Assembly: GCA_006226595.1 (NCBI GenBank)
Contig: SBGP01000108.1
Coordinates: forward strand, 1-64,000
Length of the DNA stretch: 64,000 nt
Direction of reading: 5' to 3'
Origin: Deltaproteobacteria bacterium
Lineage (GTDB): Bacteria; Myxococcota_A; UBA796; GCA-2862545
Positions 1,742-10,187 of this stretch are shown piece after piece. The position numbers and the translations under genes are program-made. Position 1 is the stretch's first letter; every line of letters starts with the position of its first letter. The notes under the pieces were generated by a model. That model saw nothing but the letters and a program-made list of their open reading frames with translations, ran no database searches and was not told where the DNA came from.

Positions 1742-3880
1742 ATGACGACGACCCACATTGCGACCTGCACCCTGTGCGAGGCCACCTGCGGCATCCTCGT
1801 CGACGTCGAGGACGGTCGGGTGACCCGCATCCAGGGCGATCCGGACGACCCGTTCTCCAAGGGGCACATCTGTCCCAAGGCGGCGGCGCTGGCCGATCTG
1901 CAGCACGACGCCGACCGGGTGACGCATCCGCTGCGGCGCACGGACACCGGCTGGGAGCGGGTGAGCTGGGACGAGGCCCTCGACGACATCGCCGCGCGCA
2001 TCCACGCGCTCCAGGAAGCGCACGGGCGCGACGCGATGGCCGTGTACCAGGGCAACCCCTGCGTGCACAACCTCGGCGTGATGCTGTTCAACCCGGGCTT
2101 CGTGAAGGCGCTGCGCACGACCCGCCGCTACAGCGCGACCAGCGTAGACCAGCTGCCACACATGCTCGCCAGCCTGCAGATGTTCGGCCACGAGCTGCTG
2201 TTGCCGGTGCCGGACGTCGACCACACCGACCTGATGATCGTATTCGGCGCCAACCCGCTGGTCAGCAACGGCAGCATCCTCACCGCGCCGGACATGAAGC
2301 GCCGCCTCGCGGGTGTTGCGGAGCGCGGCCGTCTCGTGGTCTTCGACCCCCGCAGGACGGAGACCGCGAAGCGCGCCACCGCCCATCACTTCATCCGCCC
2401 GGGCACGGACGTGTTCGCGCTGCTCGCCATGCTCCACGTGGTGTTCGCCGAGCGCGGGGCCCAGCTGGGTCACCTCGCGGATGGTGCGCGAAACCTGGAG
2501 GTGCTGCGGGCGTGGGCCGCGGACGTGACCCCGGAGGTCGCCGCGCGCGTCACCGGCGTCGATGCCGAGGTGCTCCGTGAGCTCGCCCTGGCGCTGTGCG
2601 ATACCCCGCGCGCAGTCGTGTATGGGCGCATGGGGGCTTGCACCCAGGACTTCGGCGGGACCACCGCGATGTTGCTCAACGCGCTGAACGCGGTCACCGG
2701 GCACCTCGACCGGGAAGGGGGGCTGATGTTCACGCAGCCGGCCCTGCCCGCCGTCTACCCGCCGGCCGGGCGTCCGGGCGCCGCCCGACGCCGTTTCGCG
2801 CGCTGGCGCAGTCGGGTGCGCGGCTTGCCCGAGTTCGGCGGTGAGCTGCCGGTGGCGACGCTGGCCGAGGACATCCTCGAGCCGGGCGACGACCGCATTC
2901 GCGGCCTGGTCGTGTGGGCTGGAAACCCGGTGCTCTCCTGCCCGAACGGCGCGCAGCTCGACGAGGCGATGGCGGCGCTCGACCTGCTCGTGTCGGTGGA
3001 CCTGTACCTGACCGAGACCAGCCGCCATGCGCACTACGTGCTCCCCGTGGTGCCGCCGCTGTCGCGCCCCCACTACGATGCGGCGTTCCATGCGCTCGCT
3101 ACCCGCAACGTCGCCAAGTTCAGCCCGCCGGTGCTGCCGGCGACCGGCGAAGAGCGGCAGGACTGGGAGGTCGCCACCGCGCTACAGGCGCGTCTTCAGG
3201 CGCTTCGCGGTGTCTCGCTCGCGAAGCGGGCCACCCTGGCGGCTCAGCGGGCGCTCGGGCCGCGTGGCGTGCTCGCCGCCGGGCTTCGCCTCGGGCCACA
3301 TGGCCTGCGGAACGGACGCGGCGCGGTGTCGCTGCGCAAGCTCGAGGCCCACCCTCACGGGCTCGATCTCGGGCCGCTCCACACCTGTCTGCGGGAGCGC
3401 ATGCCCAGCGACTGGCCGGGGCTCGACCTGTGCCCGGAGATCTACACGGCGGACCGGGACCGGGTCGCCGAGGTCGCGGCATCCGACCCCGAGCCGCTGG
3501 TGCTCATCGGGCGACGCCAGCTGCGCACCAACAACAGCTGGCTGCACAACGCGCCGCGGCTGATGAAGGGCAAGGATCGGTGCACGCTCATGGTTCACCC
3601 CGACGACGCGGCGTCGCGCGGGCTCGCGGCGGGCGACCGGGTACGCGTGCGGTCGCGGGTGGGTGTCGTGGAGGTGCCGGTGGAGCTCACCGACACCGTC
3701 ATGCGCGGTGTCGTCAGCCTGCCGCACGGCTTCGGCCACGGTCGCGAGGGCGTGAGCTGGACCACGGCCGCTCGGCACCCTGGCGCGTCGATCAACGACC
3801 TCACCGACGAGCAGCGGGTCGACCCGATCTCCGGCAATGCCGCGCTCAACGGCACGCCGGTGCATCTGGAGAAGGTCTGA
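1742..3880 (+). CDS. Molybdopterin-dependent oxidoreductase, single subunit
   Basis: The 712-residue protein begins with a [4Fe-4S] motif, C9-x2-C12-x3-C16-x27-C44, typical of the DMSO-reductase superfamily (formate dehydrogenase, NapA and relatives). The molybdopterin-binding body follows, with blocks such as DLMIVFGANPL and VVFDPRRTETAKRA. The C-terminal dinucleotide-binding domain (from about residue 590) carries the RRQLRTNNSW and GDRVRVRSRVG signatures. The start follows a G-rich ribosome site (gggggcacc). No Cys or SeCys is seen where formate dehydrogenases and NapA have their Mo ligand; the local sequence is ATSVDQLP, so Ser or Asp may serve. No iron-sulfur or membrane-anchor subunit lies beside it, so substrate and electron partner are unknown. 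There is no Tat signal, so it is probably cytoplasmic. Confidence 0.88.
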   Translation: MTTTHIATCTLCEATCGILVDVEDGRVTRIQGDPDDPFSKGHICPKAAALADLQHDADRVTHPLRRTDTGWERVSWDEALDDIAARIHALQEAHGRDAMAVYQGNPCVHNLGVMLFNPGFVKALRTTRRYSATSVDQLPHMLASLQMFGHELLLPVPDVDHTDLMIVFGANPLVSNGSILTAPDMKRRLAGVAERGRLVVFDPRRTETAKRATAHHFIRPGTDVFALLAMLHVVFAERGAQLGHLADGARNLEVLRAWAADVTPEVAARVTGVDAEVLRELALALCDTPRAVVYGRMGACTQDFGGTTAMLLNALNAVTGHLDREGGLMFTQPALPAVYPPAGRPGAARRRFARWRSRVRGLPEFGGELPVATLAEDILEPGDDRIRGLVVWAGNPVLSCPNGAQLDEAMAALDLLVSVDLYLTETSRHAHYVLPVVPPLSRPHYDAAFHALATRNVAKFSPPVLPATGEERQDWEVATALQARLQALRGVSLAKRATLAAQRALGPRGVLAAGLRLGPHGLRNGRGAVSLRKLEAHPHGLDLGPLHTCLRERMPSDWPGLDLCPEIYTADRDRVAEVAASDPEPLVLIGRRQLRTNNSWLHNAPRLMKGKDRCTLMVHPDDAASRGLAAGDRVRVRSRVGVVEVPVELTDTVMRGVVSLPHGFGHGREGVSWTTAARHPGASINDLTDEQRVDPISGNAALNGTPVHLEKV

Positions 3881-4141
3881 TCTGGACGGCTGTTCGAGGA
3901 GTTCCTTCCAGCCTCTCCAGGATGTACACAACCGCCGAGAGGTAGCTGGAGCCCCGCCGGCACACGGACATCGGGCTGCCACCGACCCGTGAGATCCGAT
4001 CCCTGTGCATGTCGAAGATCGCCTGTTCATGGGCGTCGACGCGGTGCGTGACAAAGGACGACGAGCTTGTGCGAACCCTTTGCGTGCGTCTTGTCCAGGG
4101 TTTGGATATGGTTTGGGGGCATCGTGTACAGGGAAGGACCC
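3881..4141. other. Intergenic leader of the desaturase gene
   Basis: No convincing gene lies in these 261 bases. It is less G+C-rich toward its right end and presumably carries the promoter of the desaturase. Two TGTACA hexamers occur (3924-3929 and 4125-4130), but they are far apart and no clear -35/-10 pair could be assigned. Confidence 0.5.
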
Positions 4142-5794
4142 ATGAGCGAGACGCGCAAGACGGCAATCATCATCGGCTCGGGCATCGGGGGGCTTAGCCT
4201 CGGCATCCGGCTGCAGGCCGCGGGGTACGACACCACCATCGTCGAGGCGCTCGACAAGCCGGGTGGGCGTGCCTACGTCCGCCAGCAGGATGGCTTCACC
4301 TTCGACATGGGCCCCACGGTCCTCACCGTGCCGCACTTCATCGAGGAGCTGTTCGCGCTCGAGCGCGATGAGCCCGGCCTCGACGCGCTGGACTTCCCGG
4401 ACGAGATCCTGCCGAAGACCGCGCACGCCACGGAGCTGCGCATCCGCGAGGGCTGGTCGAGCGGACCCCGCACGCACGAGTACGTGAAGATCCGCCCGAT
4501 CCTGCCGTTCTACCGAATCTATTTCGACGACGGCACCTACTTCGACTACGACGGCGATCCCGAGAGCACCCGCCGCCAGATCGAGGCCATCGAGCCCGCC
4601 GATCTCGAGGGCTATGAGCGCTTTCACCGCGATGCGCGCGCCATCTTCGAGCGCGGCTTCCTCGAGCTCGGCTACACCTACTTCGGTGACCCGTGGTCGA
4701 TGATCAAGGTCATCCCCGACCTGTTCAAGCTCGACGCGGTGCGCTCGCTGTTCGGGTTCACCGCCCGGTACTTCAAGAGTGACAAGCTGCGTCAGGTGTT
4801 CTCGTTCGAGACCTTGCTCATCGGCGGCAATCCGCTCCGGGTGCCCGCGATCTACGCGATGATCCACTTCGTCGAGAAGACCTGGGGCATCCACTTCGCG
4901 ATGGGCGGCACGGGTGCGCTCGTCGACGGCTTCGTGCGCAAGTACGAGGAGCTCGGCGGCACCATGCGCTACGACGCGAGCGTCGACGAGATCCTGATCG
5001 AGAAGCGCACGGCGAAGGGTGTGCGGCTGCACACCGGCGAGGAGCTGCACGCGGACCTGGTCGTGTCCAACGCGGACTACGCGACCACGTACATGAAGCT
5101 CATCGACAAGAAGCACCGCACCTGGAACCCGGACTGGAAGGTGAAGGCGCTGCGCTACTCGATGAGCCTGGTCGTCATCTACTTCGGCTTCGAGAAGCGC
5201 GAGGGTGAGACGCTCGACCTGCAGCACCACAACATCATCCTCGGGCCTCGCTACGAGGAGCTGCTCACCGACATCTTCGATCGCAAGAAGCTCGCGGACG
5301 ACTTCAGCCAGTACCTGCACATCCCGACGCTCACCGACCCGAGCCTGGCGCCCGAAGGGCACCACGCCGCGTACACGCTCATCCCGGTGCCCCACAACGG
5401 CAGCGGGCTGAACTGGGACGAGATCGGTGAGGGCTTCGTCGACAAGGTGCTCGGCATGCTCGACGACGAGGGCTTCATTCCCGGCCTTCGCGAGCGCGTC
5501 GTCACGAAGAGCTTCATCACGCCGGACTACTTCGAGGGCAAGCTGCAGGCCTACCTGGGCAACGCCTTCGGCGTGGAGCCGCGCCTCGAGCACTCCGCGT
5601 GGTTCCGCCCGCACAACCGCTCCGAGGACATCACCAACCTGTACCTGGTCGGTGCCAGTGCCCAGCCGGGTGCGGGCACGCCGTCGGTGATGATGTCGGC
5701 GAAGATGACCTGCCGGGCCATCGTCGAGGACCACGGGGTCCAGGCCGAGAAGCCCGAGCGGAGCGAGATCAGCGAGCCGGCGGCCGCGAAGTAG
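4142..5794 (+). CDS. crtI: Phytoene desaturase-like FAD oxidoreductase (CrtI family)
   Basis: This 550-residue protein has an N-terminal dinucleotide fold ([20 protein letters not shown], residues 9-28) followed by the GGRAYV block. Near the C-terminus is the CrtI-type flavin signature [20 protein letters not shown]. Length and motifs match bacterial carotenoid desaturases, which introduce double bonds into phytoene or related polyenes at the membrane. The ATG at 4142 is chosen because a good ribosome site (agggaagg) sits just upstream; a longer frame opens at 4067 without one. No phytoene synthase or other carotenoid gene is next to it, so it could also be a saturase or isomerase of the same family. 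The next gene converges from the minus strand. Confidence 0.85.
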
Positions 5795-7161: not shown

Positions 7162-8372
7162 TGTGGTGGTTCCTGGCGACGGCGGCCGCTCAGCAGCTTG
7201 CGTTCCCGACGACGACCGAGCACGCCGAGTTCTTCTACCCGACCGCGTACTACGACCACGCAGGGGTCGACTACGACTGCGGCTCCATTCGCTACAGCGG
7301 CCACCGTGGCAGTGACTTCGGCGGCGGCGGCTTCACCGGTATGGACGCCGGACGTGACATCACCGCGGCGGCGCACGGCGTGGTGGTGGCGATCAACGAC
7401 GGTGAGTTCGACCGGTGCACCACCGCAGACTGCGCGGGAGGCGGTGGCTTCGGCAACTACGTGAAGCTCCAGCACGCCTCGGGTCGGGTCACGTACTACG
7501 CGCACCTCGCCCAGTGGAGCGTGACCGTGGCGGTCGGCGACTCCGTGTCCTGCGGCGACAAGCTCGGACGCATGGGCAGCTCCGGCTACTCCACCGGACC
7601 GCACATCCACCTCGACGCGCGCGACCGCGACAACAACCGCCTCGACCCCTTCGCTGGATCGTGCGGGGACGCCGTGGACTGGTGGGTGGACGCGGGGCCC
7701 TACGATGGGCTGCCGGGGCTCGTGTGCGACGAGGGCTACCCCGAGTGCGCCCCGGTCGCCGAGCTCACCTGCGGCGACGTGGTCCAGGCGCGAAACGACG
7801 ACCCGGGTTCCACCGACGTGCACGAGGTCTACGGCTGCCACACCGCGACCTACACCGGACCCGAGATGGCGTACACCGTGCGCAGCGGCGCCGACGAGGT
7901 GGTCACCCTCACCCTGACCGGGCTCGAGGCCGACCTCGACATCTATGCGCTCGAGACGCCGGAGTGCATGGGTCGCAGCTGCCTCGGCGTGTCGCACGAC
8001 GTGCAGGCGAACGACGAGCTGGTCGAGGTCGACGCGCTCGCGGACGTGCCGTTCACCGTCGTCGTCGACGGCTGGCAGGACGCGGTGAGCCCGTTCACGC
8101 TCACCGTGAGCTGCGACACACCCTACGTCGAACCCGGTCCCGAGGACTCGGGCCTCGAAGAGACCGGCGACCCGGAGACCGGCGACCCGGAGACCGGCGA
8201 CCCCACCAGCGGCGACAGCGACGAGCCGCTGGTCGAGCAGCCGGGCGGCTGTGCCTGCGACGCGTCGGGGCGCGCGATGCCCACGGCGTGGCTGTTCGCG
8301 GGCTTCGTGCCGCTGATCACCCGAAGACGGGCTCGGCGTAGAACTGCTTGCACCAGCGGCGATAGCGCGTGA
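7161..8372 (+). CDS. M23 (LytM-type) metallopeptidase with MYXO-CTERM-like tail
   Basis: This 403-residue protein has a very short uncharged signal sequence (MWWFLATAAAQQ). The LytM/M23 domain spans about residues 45-160: HRGSDFG supplies the first zinc ligands (HxxxD) and GPHIHLD the HxH motif. Such enzymes cut peptide cross-links in peptidoglycan. A second domain (about 195-320) is beta-rich, like a pre-peptidase C-terminal domain. A Thr/Gly/Asp/Pro linker of three ETGDP repeats follows, then a Cys-containing bend (GGCACDASG), a hydrophobic helix and an Arg cluster, as in MYXO-CTERM sorting tails. The last 56 bases overlap the convergent Rieske-family gene, so the exact C-terminus deserves caution. 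Confidence 0.85.
   Translation: MWWFLATAAAQQLAFPTTTEHAEFFYPTAYYDHAGVDYDCGSIRYSGHRGSDFGGGGFTGMDAGRDITAAAHGVVVAINDGEFDRCTTADCAGGGGFGNYVKLQHASGRVTYYAHLAQWSVTVAVGDSVSCGDKLGRMGSSGYSTGPHIHLDARDRDNNRLDPFAGSCGDAVDWWVDAGPYDGLPGLVCDEGYPECAPVAELTCGDVVQARNDDPGSTDVHEVYGCHTATYTGPEMAYTVRSGADEVVTLTLTGLEADLDIYALETPECMGRSCLGVSHDVQANDELVEVDALADVPFTVVVDGWQDAVSPFTLTVSCDTPYVEPGPEDSGLEETGDPETGDPETGDPTSGDSDEPLVEQPGGCACDASGRAMPTAWLFAGFVPLITRRRARRRTACTSGDSA
8160..8204 (+). repeat. 15-bp tandem repeat encoding ETGDP (3 copies)
   Basis: Three copies of gagaccggcgacccg (last base changed in copy three) lie in frame in the M23 peptidase gene and encode the ETGDP linker just before the sorting tail. Confidence 0.9.
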
Positions 8373-9159
8373 TCGGCCCGTCGCCCTGCACCATGCGCGG
8401 CGGGTCGACGTACACCTTGTGTTCCCAGATCGCGAGGTCCTGCGACACGTCCTGGATGTAGGCCCGCATGAGGCCGACCCGCGCTCCCCAGCGACCGAGG
8501 GCGAGCAGCGGCGCGGGCAGGCGGTGGTCGAGGTGGGTCGCCCCGGCAATGCGCAGCTCGACCCTGCCGCCGTCGATCGGGGTGCACATCACGAGCTGGC
8601 GTGTGCGCAGGCCGTAGGACGCGACGTGGTTCTCGACGAAGGAGTAGCCGAGCCCGTGCACCCACACGGTGAACTGGGCGCGGATCGGCTCGCCGAAGGG
8701 GTCGAAGGGCAGGGGTTTGCGCGTGAACGCGTAGGTCGCCTCCAGGGTCGGGCCATCGGCGACGGCCTCGGACACGGTCTCGACGTTGTCGTAGCCGTGG
8801 ACCACCGAGAGGTGCGCGATGTCGACGGAGTTCTCGCTGGTCTCCTGCGGGTGGGTCGCGATCGGCGGGAAGGTGTAGCCGGTGAACGCCGACCAGCCCC
8901 CGCTGTCGGGCACCGGCAGGGTCCACTCGGGTACGCCCTCGTCGCGGTCGAACCAGCCGAGCACGGCCCCGTTCAGCTCGACCAGCGGCACCGCGGGTCC
9001 GCCGTCGAGCACGCGCGCAAAGGGCCGGCCGCCGGAGCGGTCGAGCTCGAGCAGGCGTCCACACCACCGCCCCATCACCGGGCGCCCGCCGATCTCGTGG
9101 GCGAAGCCAACGGCGAACCACCCCTTGGGGTAGGGGTCGAGCGGGTGGCGTCCCCTCAT
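8317..9159 (-). CDS. KshA-type oxygenase paralogue lacking the Rieske cluster
   Basis: The 280-residue product matches the catalytic half of its two upstream neighbours: SENSVDIAHLSVVHGYDN (about residues 108-125) keeps the Asp/His/His set for the mononuclear iron, and the C-terminus has the family ending IWEHKVYVDPP...RRWCKQFY. The N-terminal part is only about 65 residues and has no CxH or CxxH pair, so the [2Fe-2S] Rieske site is absent. The frame is intact and the start (9159) overlaps the upstream stop as ATGA, which argues for an expressed gene. It could be a heteromeric partner fed by a neighbour's cluster, or a decaying copy. Confidence 0.8.
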   Translation of the reverse strand: MRGRHPLDPYPKGWFAVGFAHEIGGRPVMGRWCGRLLELDRSGGRPFARVLDGGPAVPLVELNGAVLGWFDRDEGVPEWTLPVPDSGGWSAFTGYTFPPIATHPQETSENSVDIAHLSVVHGYDNVETVSEAVADGPTLEATYAFTRKPLPFDPFGEPIRAQFTVWVHGLGYSFVENHVASYGLRTRQLVMCTPIDGGRVELRIAGATHLDHRLPAPLLALGRWGARVGLMRAYIQDVSQDLAIWEHKVYVDPPRMVQGDGPITRYRRWCKQFYAEPVFG

Positions 9160-10187
9160 CCGCGTCCTCCGGCCACCCGCAGGGTCTCGCGGGCCTCGGT
9201 GTCGACGTAGAACTGCCGCGCCCACTTGCGGAAGGCGTGGACCGGGCCGTCCTCGGGAACGAGCACCGGCTTGTCGAAGTACTTCTTGTTCTCCCAGATC
9301 GGCACGTCCTGATCGATGGTCACGCCGCCTTCGGACACGGCCTTCCGCCACAGCAGCCAGGTCGCGACGCGCGAGCGGAGCTTCTTCATGCACAGGAAGG
9401 ACACGAACTCGACGTGCTGGTCGTCGCGGGGCACCGGATAGAACACGAAGGTGTAGTCCAGCTCGATGCCGGTGTAGACCTTGGCGCGGTTCACGAAGAT
9501 CCCGAGGCCGTGGTAGTGCACGTCTAGGGGGCCATCGACCTTGTCGCGCAGCAGCTTGGCGATGCCGAACAGGTTGAAGTCCTGCCAGGTGCGGTGCACG
9601 AGGTGCGGGCCGTCGGCCTCGAGCGCGTCGGTGCGCATGCCCTTGGTCTGCTGGCAGTGCAGGTGCACGAAGTGCGCGTTGTCAACGCCGTTCTCGGCGA
9701 GTTCCTGCACGTGGGTGCGGATCGTCCAGCGCTTCGCGGGCTTCATGCCCGTCCACTCCGGGTCGTCGGCCTCCGGGATCACCGGCGGCTCCCAGCTCGG
9801 TGCCGCGCCCTCCGGATGGTGCCACACGAGGACCTGCCCGGCCGACTCGCGCAGCGGCCAGCTGCGAACGCAGGCCTTCGGCGCCTTGCGCGGCGAGTAG
9901 GGCACGTCCGCGACCTGGCCGTCCCCGGCGATCTTCCAGCCGTGGAAGGGGCACACGACCTGGTTGCCCTCGATGTGACCGCCGTGACCGAGGTGGGCGC
10001 CCATGTGCGGGCAGTGCGCGTCGAGCATGCGCACCTCGCCGTCCTCGCCGCGGTAGACGATCACCTCCTGGCCGAAGAGCCGCCGGTTGAGGATGGTGCC
10101 CGGCGTCAGCTCGCTCTGGGACGCGACCCAGAACCAGCCGATGGGAAAGGGCGAGAAGGGGTAGCGCTCGGCGACGGGGGCGTTCAT
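9156..10187 (-). CDS. Rieske non-heme iron oxygenase, KshA/sterol-type
   Basis: This 343-residue protein has a complete Rieske domain (C59-x-H61 in CPHMGAHLG and C79-x2-H82 in CPFHGW) and a catalytic domain with ENGVDNAHFVHLH, the mononuclear iron site. The C-terminal block IWENKKYFDKPVL...FRKWARQFYVD is characteristic of 3-ketosteroid 9alpha-hydroxylase (KshA) and related sterol oxygenases. Such enzymes hydroxylate or desaturate steroid-like rings using electrons from a separate reductase. It starts with ATG at 10187, overlapping the preceding stop (ATGA), and ends in an ATGA overlap with the cluster-less paralogue. No reductase gene is seen nearby, so the substrate remains open: a steroid, a sterol (compare the bacterial C-4 demethylase SdmA) or another polycycle. 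Confidence 0.88.
   Translation of the reverse strand: MNAPVAERYPFSPFPIGWFWVASQSELTPGTILNRRLFGQEVIVYRGEDGEVRMLDAHCPHMGAHLGHGGHIEGNQVVCPFHGWKIAGDGQVADVPYSPRKAPKACVRSWPLRESAGQVLVWHHPEGAAPSWEPPVIPEADDPEWTGMKPAKRWTIRTHVQELAENGVDNAHFVHLHCQQTKGMRTDALEADGPHLVHRTWQDFNLFGIAKLLRDKVDGPLDVHYHGLGIFVNRAKVYTGIELDYTFVFYPVPRDDQHVEFVSFLCMKKLRSRVATWLLWRKAVSEGGVTIDQDVPIWENKKYFDKPVLVPEDGPVHAFRKWARQFYVDTEARETLRVAGGRG

Follow-up and report, generated by a model that had tools for sequence, protein, structure and literature searches.

A predicted KshA-type oxygenase subunit without a Rieske domain, coupled to two complete paralogues, and recurrent loss of the cluster-binding subdomain among its relatives

The accepted view of Rieske oxygenases is that every catalytic chain requires a [2Fe-2S] cluster. 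The distance from cluster to catalytic iron is approximately 12 Å across subunits versus approximately 45 Å within one, and mixed alpha3 alpha-prime3 assemblies exist (PMC12445004). In the oxygenase component of 3-ketosteroid 9-alpha-hydroxylase (KshA) from M. tuberculosis, Asp178 is the residue through which electrons pass from one subunit to its neighbor (PMC4064121). Two systems stand out as odd cases. NdmC works with a Rieske domain on another protein (PMC4408171), a precedent which the first-pass annotation of the present locus had invoked and which is real. The chlorophyllide a oxygenase (CAO) of Micromonas pusilla is a Rieske oxygenase with its functions divided between two chains (PMC9615114, citing Kunugi 2013).

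The window is a stretch of 64,000 nucleotides from a deltaproteobacterial draft genome (GCA_006226595.1, contig SBGP01000108.1). Its minus strand contains three consecutive KshA-type genes, the last of which encodes the protein P0001:

10184..11278, minus strand: P0002, complete oxygenase of the KshA type, with an intact Rieske part and triad; second possible source of the cluster (translation start tentatively placed at ATG 11278)
10184-10187, minus strand: ATGA overlap between the two complete paralogues
9156..10187, minus strand: 343-aa complete oxygenase of the KshA type, with an intact Rieske part and triad; possible source of the cluster
9156..9159, minus strand: ATGA stop/start overlap between complete paralogue and cluster-less gene
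8317..9159, minus strand: P0001, KshA-type cluster-less oxygenase subunit, 280 aa (translation, Pfam, alignment, AlphaFold2 model)

The P0001 frame is free of stops. Its sole Pfam-A match is KshA_C (PF19298; residues 69-274, E 1.6e-26), scoring 94.1 bits against a curated cut-off of 23.3; both the Pfam Rieske domain and the CxH...CxxH motif were sought in the protein and are absent. Each of the two genes coupled to it carries Rieske plus KshA_C, and among the seven KshA_C proteins of the source genome P0001 alone is without a Rieske domain. GC content by codon position (0.70/0.49/0.94, the third being 0.94) is like that of both neighbors, and the frame is thus a normal coding frame. These results agree with the first-pass annotation, which had reported the missing motif, the intact frame and ATGA overlap, and the coupling to two complete paralogues. 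Three more Rieske oxygenase genes are found within approximately 8.5 kb on contig C80 of the same genome (4354-12844); these have no KshA_C match above the cut-off.

Alignment of P0001 with 62 relatives reveals normal first strands (GWFAVGF..., GRLLELDRSGGRPFARVLDGG), after which the protein passes directly into VPLVELNGAVLGWF, the final strand of the base domain, with neither of the cluster-binding loops present. From the Trp of GW[FY] to the last Trp of the base strands there are 55 residues; 78 complete relatives have a median spacing of 104 (91-114). The AlphaFold2 model, built on a 54-row alignment (pLDDT 93.5), possesses a base domain of six strands (13-19, 28-32, 35-42, 45-50, 59-62 and 65-70) closing over the junction, with strands 45-50 and 59-62 on either side of it, and the cluster-binding subdomain is absent. 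VIA-align superposes 266 residues of P0001 on residues 21-346 of the KshA5 chain (4qdc), at 2.4 Å and Z 27. From the alignment, the modeled fold and the match to KshA5 we conclude that the cluster-binding subdomain (approximately 50 residues) has been cut out cleanly at its boundaries, leaving the remainder in place, a result suggesting that the base of a Rieske domain can keep its fold when the cluster portion is gone. The front of the protein had earlier been judged about 55 residues shorter than in the paralogue; the shortening holds, at a size here closer to 50. The junction and the retained catalytic residues are located as follows:

8986..9015, minus strand: excision junction, approximately residues 49-58 (ARVLDGGPAV), with approximately 50 residues of the cluster-binding subdomain missing (alignment, spacing, AlphaFold2)
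8821..8823, minus strand: D113 codon, equivalent to the bridging Asp of KshA (Asp178 in M. tuberculosis), invariant in 54/54; role from PMC4064121
8797..8814, minus strand: H116 to H121 codons, the two iron-binding histidines, invariant in 54/54
8437..8439, minus strand: D241 codon, carboxylate of the facial triad, invariant in 54/54

The catalytic stretch reads ENSVD113IAH116LSVVH121, to which D241 is added, and the iron site that had been called intact (H116, H121, D241) is indeed present. D113, H116, H121, G169 and D241 are the only invariant columns in 54 aligned proteins, the cluster-less ones included. When positions at least 85% conserved among complete members are taken as conserved, P0001 keeps 30 of the 31 in the catalytic domain, which is on a par with the complete members (mean 94%) and therefore not a matter of chance.

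The nearest homologue of P0001 (L064, 49-51% identity) is complete, as are nearly all of the homologues closest to it (38-51% identity), sought at the levels of family, order, class and phylum, and no truncated orthologue of exactly P0001 was found among the homologues searched at these ranks. In a tree of 89 catalytic domains the end branch of P0001 measures 0.82, versus 0.48 for its sister. At least five further genomes of the phylum encode cluster-less KshA-type proteins with the same junction: L100 (genome G079), L199 (G408), the second gene of L104 (G246), L145 (G239) and L191 (G121). The truncated form recurs in related genomes as a type, but among those searched not as an orthologue of P0001. 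The first-pass annotation would have read Rieske motifs in all close homologues as the sign of a local deletion; the closest are complete, but truncation recurs elsewhere, in one lineage under selection. The triad and the bridging Asp are kept in all of L100, L104 gene 2, L145 and L191. Sequences from G164 (L066/L101), G362 (contig C45, L193) and G350 (L192) were rejected as cluster-less forms, being short through a frame or contig cut. L052 gene 2 and L061, triad-less by a strict pattern, were likewise set aside as such, D..HF...H being present with Gln for Asn.

The start of L104 gene 2 overlaps (ATGA) a complete KshA-type gene upstream, as in the window. At 6493-8834 of L145 (contig C1 of G239) the cluster-less gene is coupled by ATGA to a cytochrome P450 and not to a complete oxygenase, and it is possible that the two share a pathway. 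L191 adjoins genes for enoyl-CoA hydratase and acyl-CoA dehydrogenase, and L100 has rpoA and secY in its vicinity but no neighboring oxygenase; L191 and the L100/L199 pair are orphans in that they lack an adjacent complete oxygenase. An adjacent donor is not universal among cluster-less genes. The earlier proposal that a neighbor supplies the cluster gains from L104, which repeats the coupling, and loses as a fixed rule through the orphans and the P450-linked L145. Since the donor of an orphan need not be adjacent, donors in trans have to be considered.

On the tree of 89 domains the six cluster-less proteins, among which the half-cluster case L039/L055 is counted, require five changes; well-supported branches force at least four of these. 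Holding the cluster-less forms as one clade is rejected (AU test, p-AU 0.0003), and this, with the tree, rules out a single origin of all of them; the phylogeny indicates at least four separate origins. L104 gene 2 and L145, from different families of the phylum and approximately 31% identical, may have one old loss in common, the branch joining them being weak (50/27). A search of the family of G079 yielded L199 in a second species (G408), with a junction between LRVTTP and ASL identical to that of L100; the two species, of one genus, have the deletion in common. Over 179 codons L100 and L199 differ at 19/15/53 sites by codon position (p 1.3e-7), and four methods give dN 0.09-0.11 and dS 0.48-0.81, that is, dN/dS of approximately 0.1-0.2. 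The NG86 value of 0.20 is at the upper edge of that for complete congeners (0.07-0.20). If the identical junction was inherited, the deletion predates the split and purifying selection has acted on the cluster-less protein, which, judged by its codons, would be functional and kept by selection. As the nearest homologue of P0001 is complete, selection after the loss was measured on the L100/L199 lineage and not on P0001. Loss that is repeated, and in one lineage or more maintained by selection, suggests that cluster-less subunits draw electrons from another protein.

Not every deletion in the KshA-type family is adaptive. Both of the tandem KshA-type genes of L055 (7128-9208, contig C54 of G016) have in-frame deletions that lie within the Rieske half or extend across it; one possesses CPHLGADL but no CxxH, and the other lacks the triad as well. 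By comparison with L146, the first gene of this pair is a polyketide-cyclase-like fusion, in which the iron histidines are lost too. L146 itself (3734-5170, minus strand, contig C648 of G007) has a Polyketide_cyc2/SRPBCC domain ahead of a complete KshA-type Rieske oxygenase in a 479-residue open frame. L195 (5170-6186, contig C342 of G214), an orthologue of L100, has its Rieske part intact and has lost approximately 42 catalytic-domain residues in frame. A tandem pair beside a polyketide synthase on a plasmid of Streptomyces sp. YIM 121038 (L197, NZ_CP030772.1, 4941-6937) consists of a 283-aa protein that has CxH and lacks CxxH (half a Rieske, annotated as Rieske) and a complete KshA-type oxygenase. 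The G016 pair, L195 and the Streptomyces pair may be decaying genes. Because the queries were catalytic domains, the searches would under-count losses in that half of the protein. Two complete tandem KshA-type oxygenases are found on a Burkholderia cenocepacia plasmid (L198, NZ_CP091014.1, 3612-6823), directly after a terpene-cyclase-like gene that is unannotated in the record.

We put at about even the chance that P0001 is a catalytic iron-site subunit minus its [2Fe-2S] subdomain, receiving electrons in trans, most likely within a mixed KshA-like trimer. In such a head-to-tail trimer P0001 would be joined by one or other of the complete paralogues whose translation immediately precedes its own, the partner's Rieske cluster facing the P0001 iron and D113 forming the bridge. 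Given the inter-subunit gap of approximately 12 Å, a chain without a cluster can turn over if its neighbor in the ring has one. The mixed trimer is favored in the window because D113 is invariant, because the gene is coupled to complete paralogues, and because NdmC offers a precedent. Against it, both neighbors have complete iron sites and so do not need P0001; the completeness of L064, the longer end branch of P0001 and the orphan genes also weigh on that side. We infer the mixed trimer and the identity of the donor, and regard the heteromer as the best mechanism for the window gene with a probability near one half. The substrate is probably a steroid or terpenoid. A broader proposal is somewhat more tentative: cluster-less KshA-type subunits could be a recurrent, convergent class in the phylum, each formed by excision at natural limits, its iron site fed by a complete paralogue in an asymmetric trimer that holds fewer clusters than irons.

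Unlikely, but the best of the alternatives, is that P0001 is an active iron oxygenase that takes its electrons from a free Rieske ferredoxin, or from a complete oxygenase whose gene lies at another place, comparable to NdmC, whose Rieske domain resides on the reductase (PMC4408171). Such a donor would suit the orphan L100/L199 genes, which are under purifying selection with none adjacent, and the source genome encodes a small stand-alone Rieske protein (L013, a 176-aa open frame). This reading has to contend with the translational coupling of both the window gene and the L104 gene to complete paralogues, and the seven Rieske proteins scanned, a subset, include no reductase-Rieske fusion. Loss of a redox center is a common route to a pseudoenzyme, and the START-like fold can bind lipids; P0001 might be a pseudo-oxygenase that does not turn over and that serves the complete enzymes in structure, regulation or substrate binding. 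Mixed alpha3 alpha-prime3 assemblies (PMC12445004) could accommodate such a partner, but no cluster-less protein whose catalytic domain is intact has changed the triad or the bridging Asp, residues that pure binding would not need, leaving this reading rather improbable. We give still less weight to a recent in-frame deletion with P0001 on its way to becoming a pseudogene. Its close homologues are complete and large in-frame deletions occur elsewhere in the family (the catalytic domain of L195, both tandem genes of L055), yet 30 of 31 conserved positions and a normal codon structure are kept, and the same excision at the same subdomain limits is seen in several lineages, one under purifying selection afterwards. 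Assembly error is scarcely credible, even in a draft of 117 contigs, as the junction is in frame, lies between structural elements and is the same as in independent genomes, the matching junctions including one in a genome estimated 100% complete and one common to two species.

If P0001 does draw its electrons from a complete partner, natural mixtures of cluster-less and complete chains would make inter-subunit electron transfer testable without engineered mutants, and the repeated natural removal of the cluster subdomain alone, with the aspartate kept, would separate the two half-reactions ready-made. Cluster-less iron subunits (NdmC) and a two-chain Rieske oxygenase (Micromonas CAO) are already known; the KshA-type cluster-less form and its repeated clean excision were not found described in the open-access literature. 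Text searches of that literature for an oxygenase lacking Rieske found none, which is weak evidence of novelty.

P0001 has in common with KshA (PDB 4qdc, 2zyl) PF19298, the fold (Z 27), the triad, the bridging Asp and the base of the Rieske domain. The [2Fe-2S] cluster that KshA carries is lacking in P0001 together with its subdomain (approximately 50-60 residues), and P0001 is not known to share the ketosteroid substrate of KshA. The complete neighbors of P0001 match the model for SdmA, the oxygenase of bacterial sterol C-4 demethylation (PMC10202945, NF052579), over the Rieske half, at 56 and 66 bits, far below the 600-bit cut-off, and an NCBIfam search of P0001 gave no match; sterol C-4 demethylation was rejected as the function on these weak matches. 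NdmC, of the caffeine N7-demethylase NdmCDE (PMC4408171), is by description, like P0001, a mononuclear-iron oxygenase without a cluster of its own. It depends on a cluster fused to the reductase NdmD and on the GST-like NdmE, whereas the proteins coupled to P0001 are complete oxygenases. In the CAO of Micromonas each chain keeps just one center. That enzyme belongs to a eukaryotic alga, acts on another substrate and is made of complementary chains, whereas the two paralogues coupled to P0001 keep both centers.
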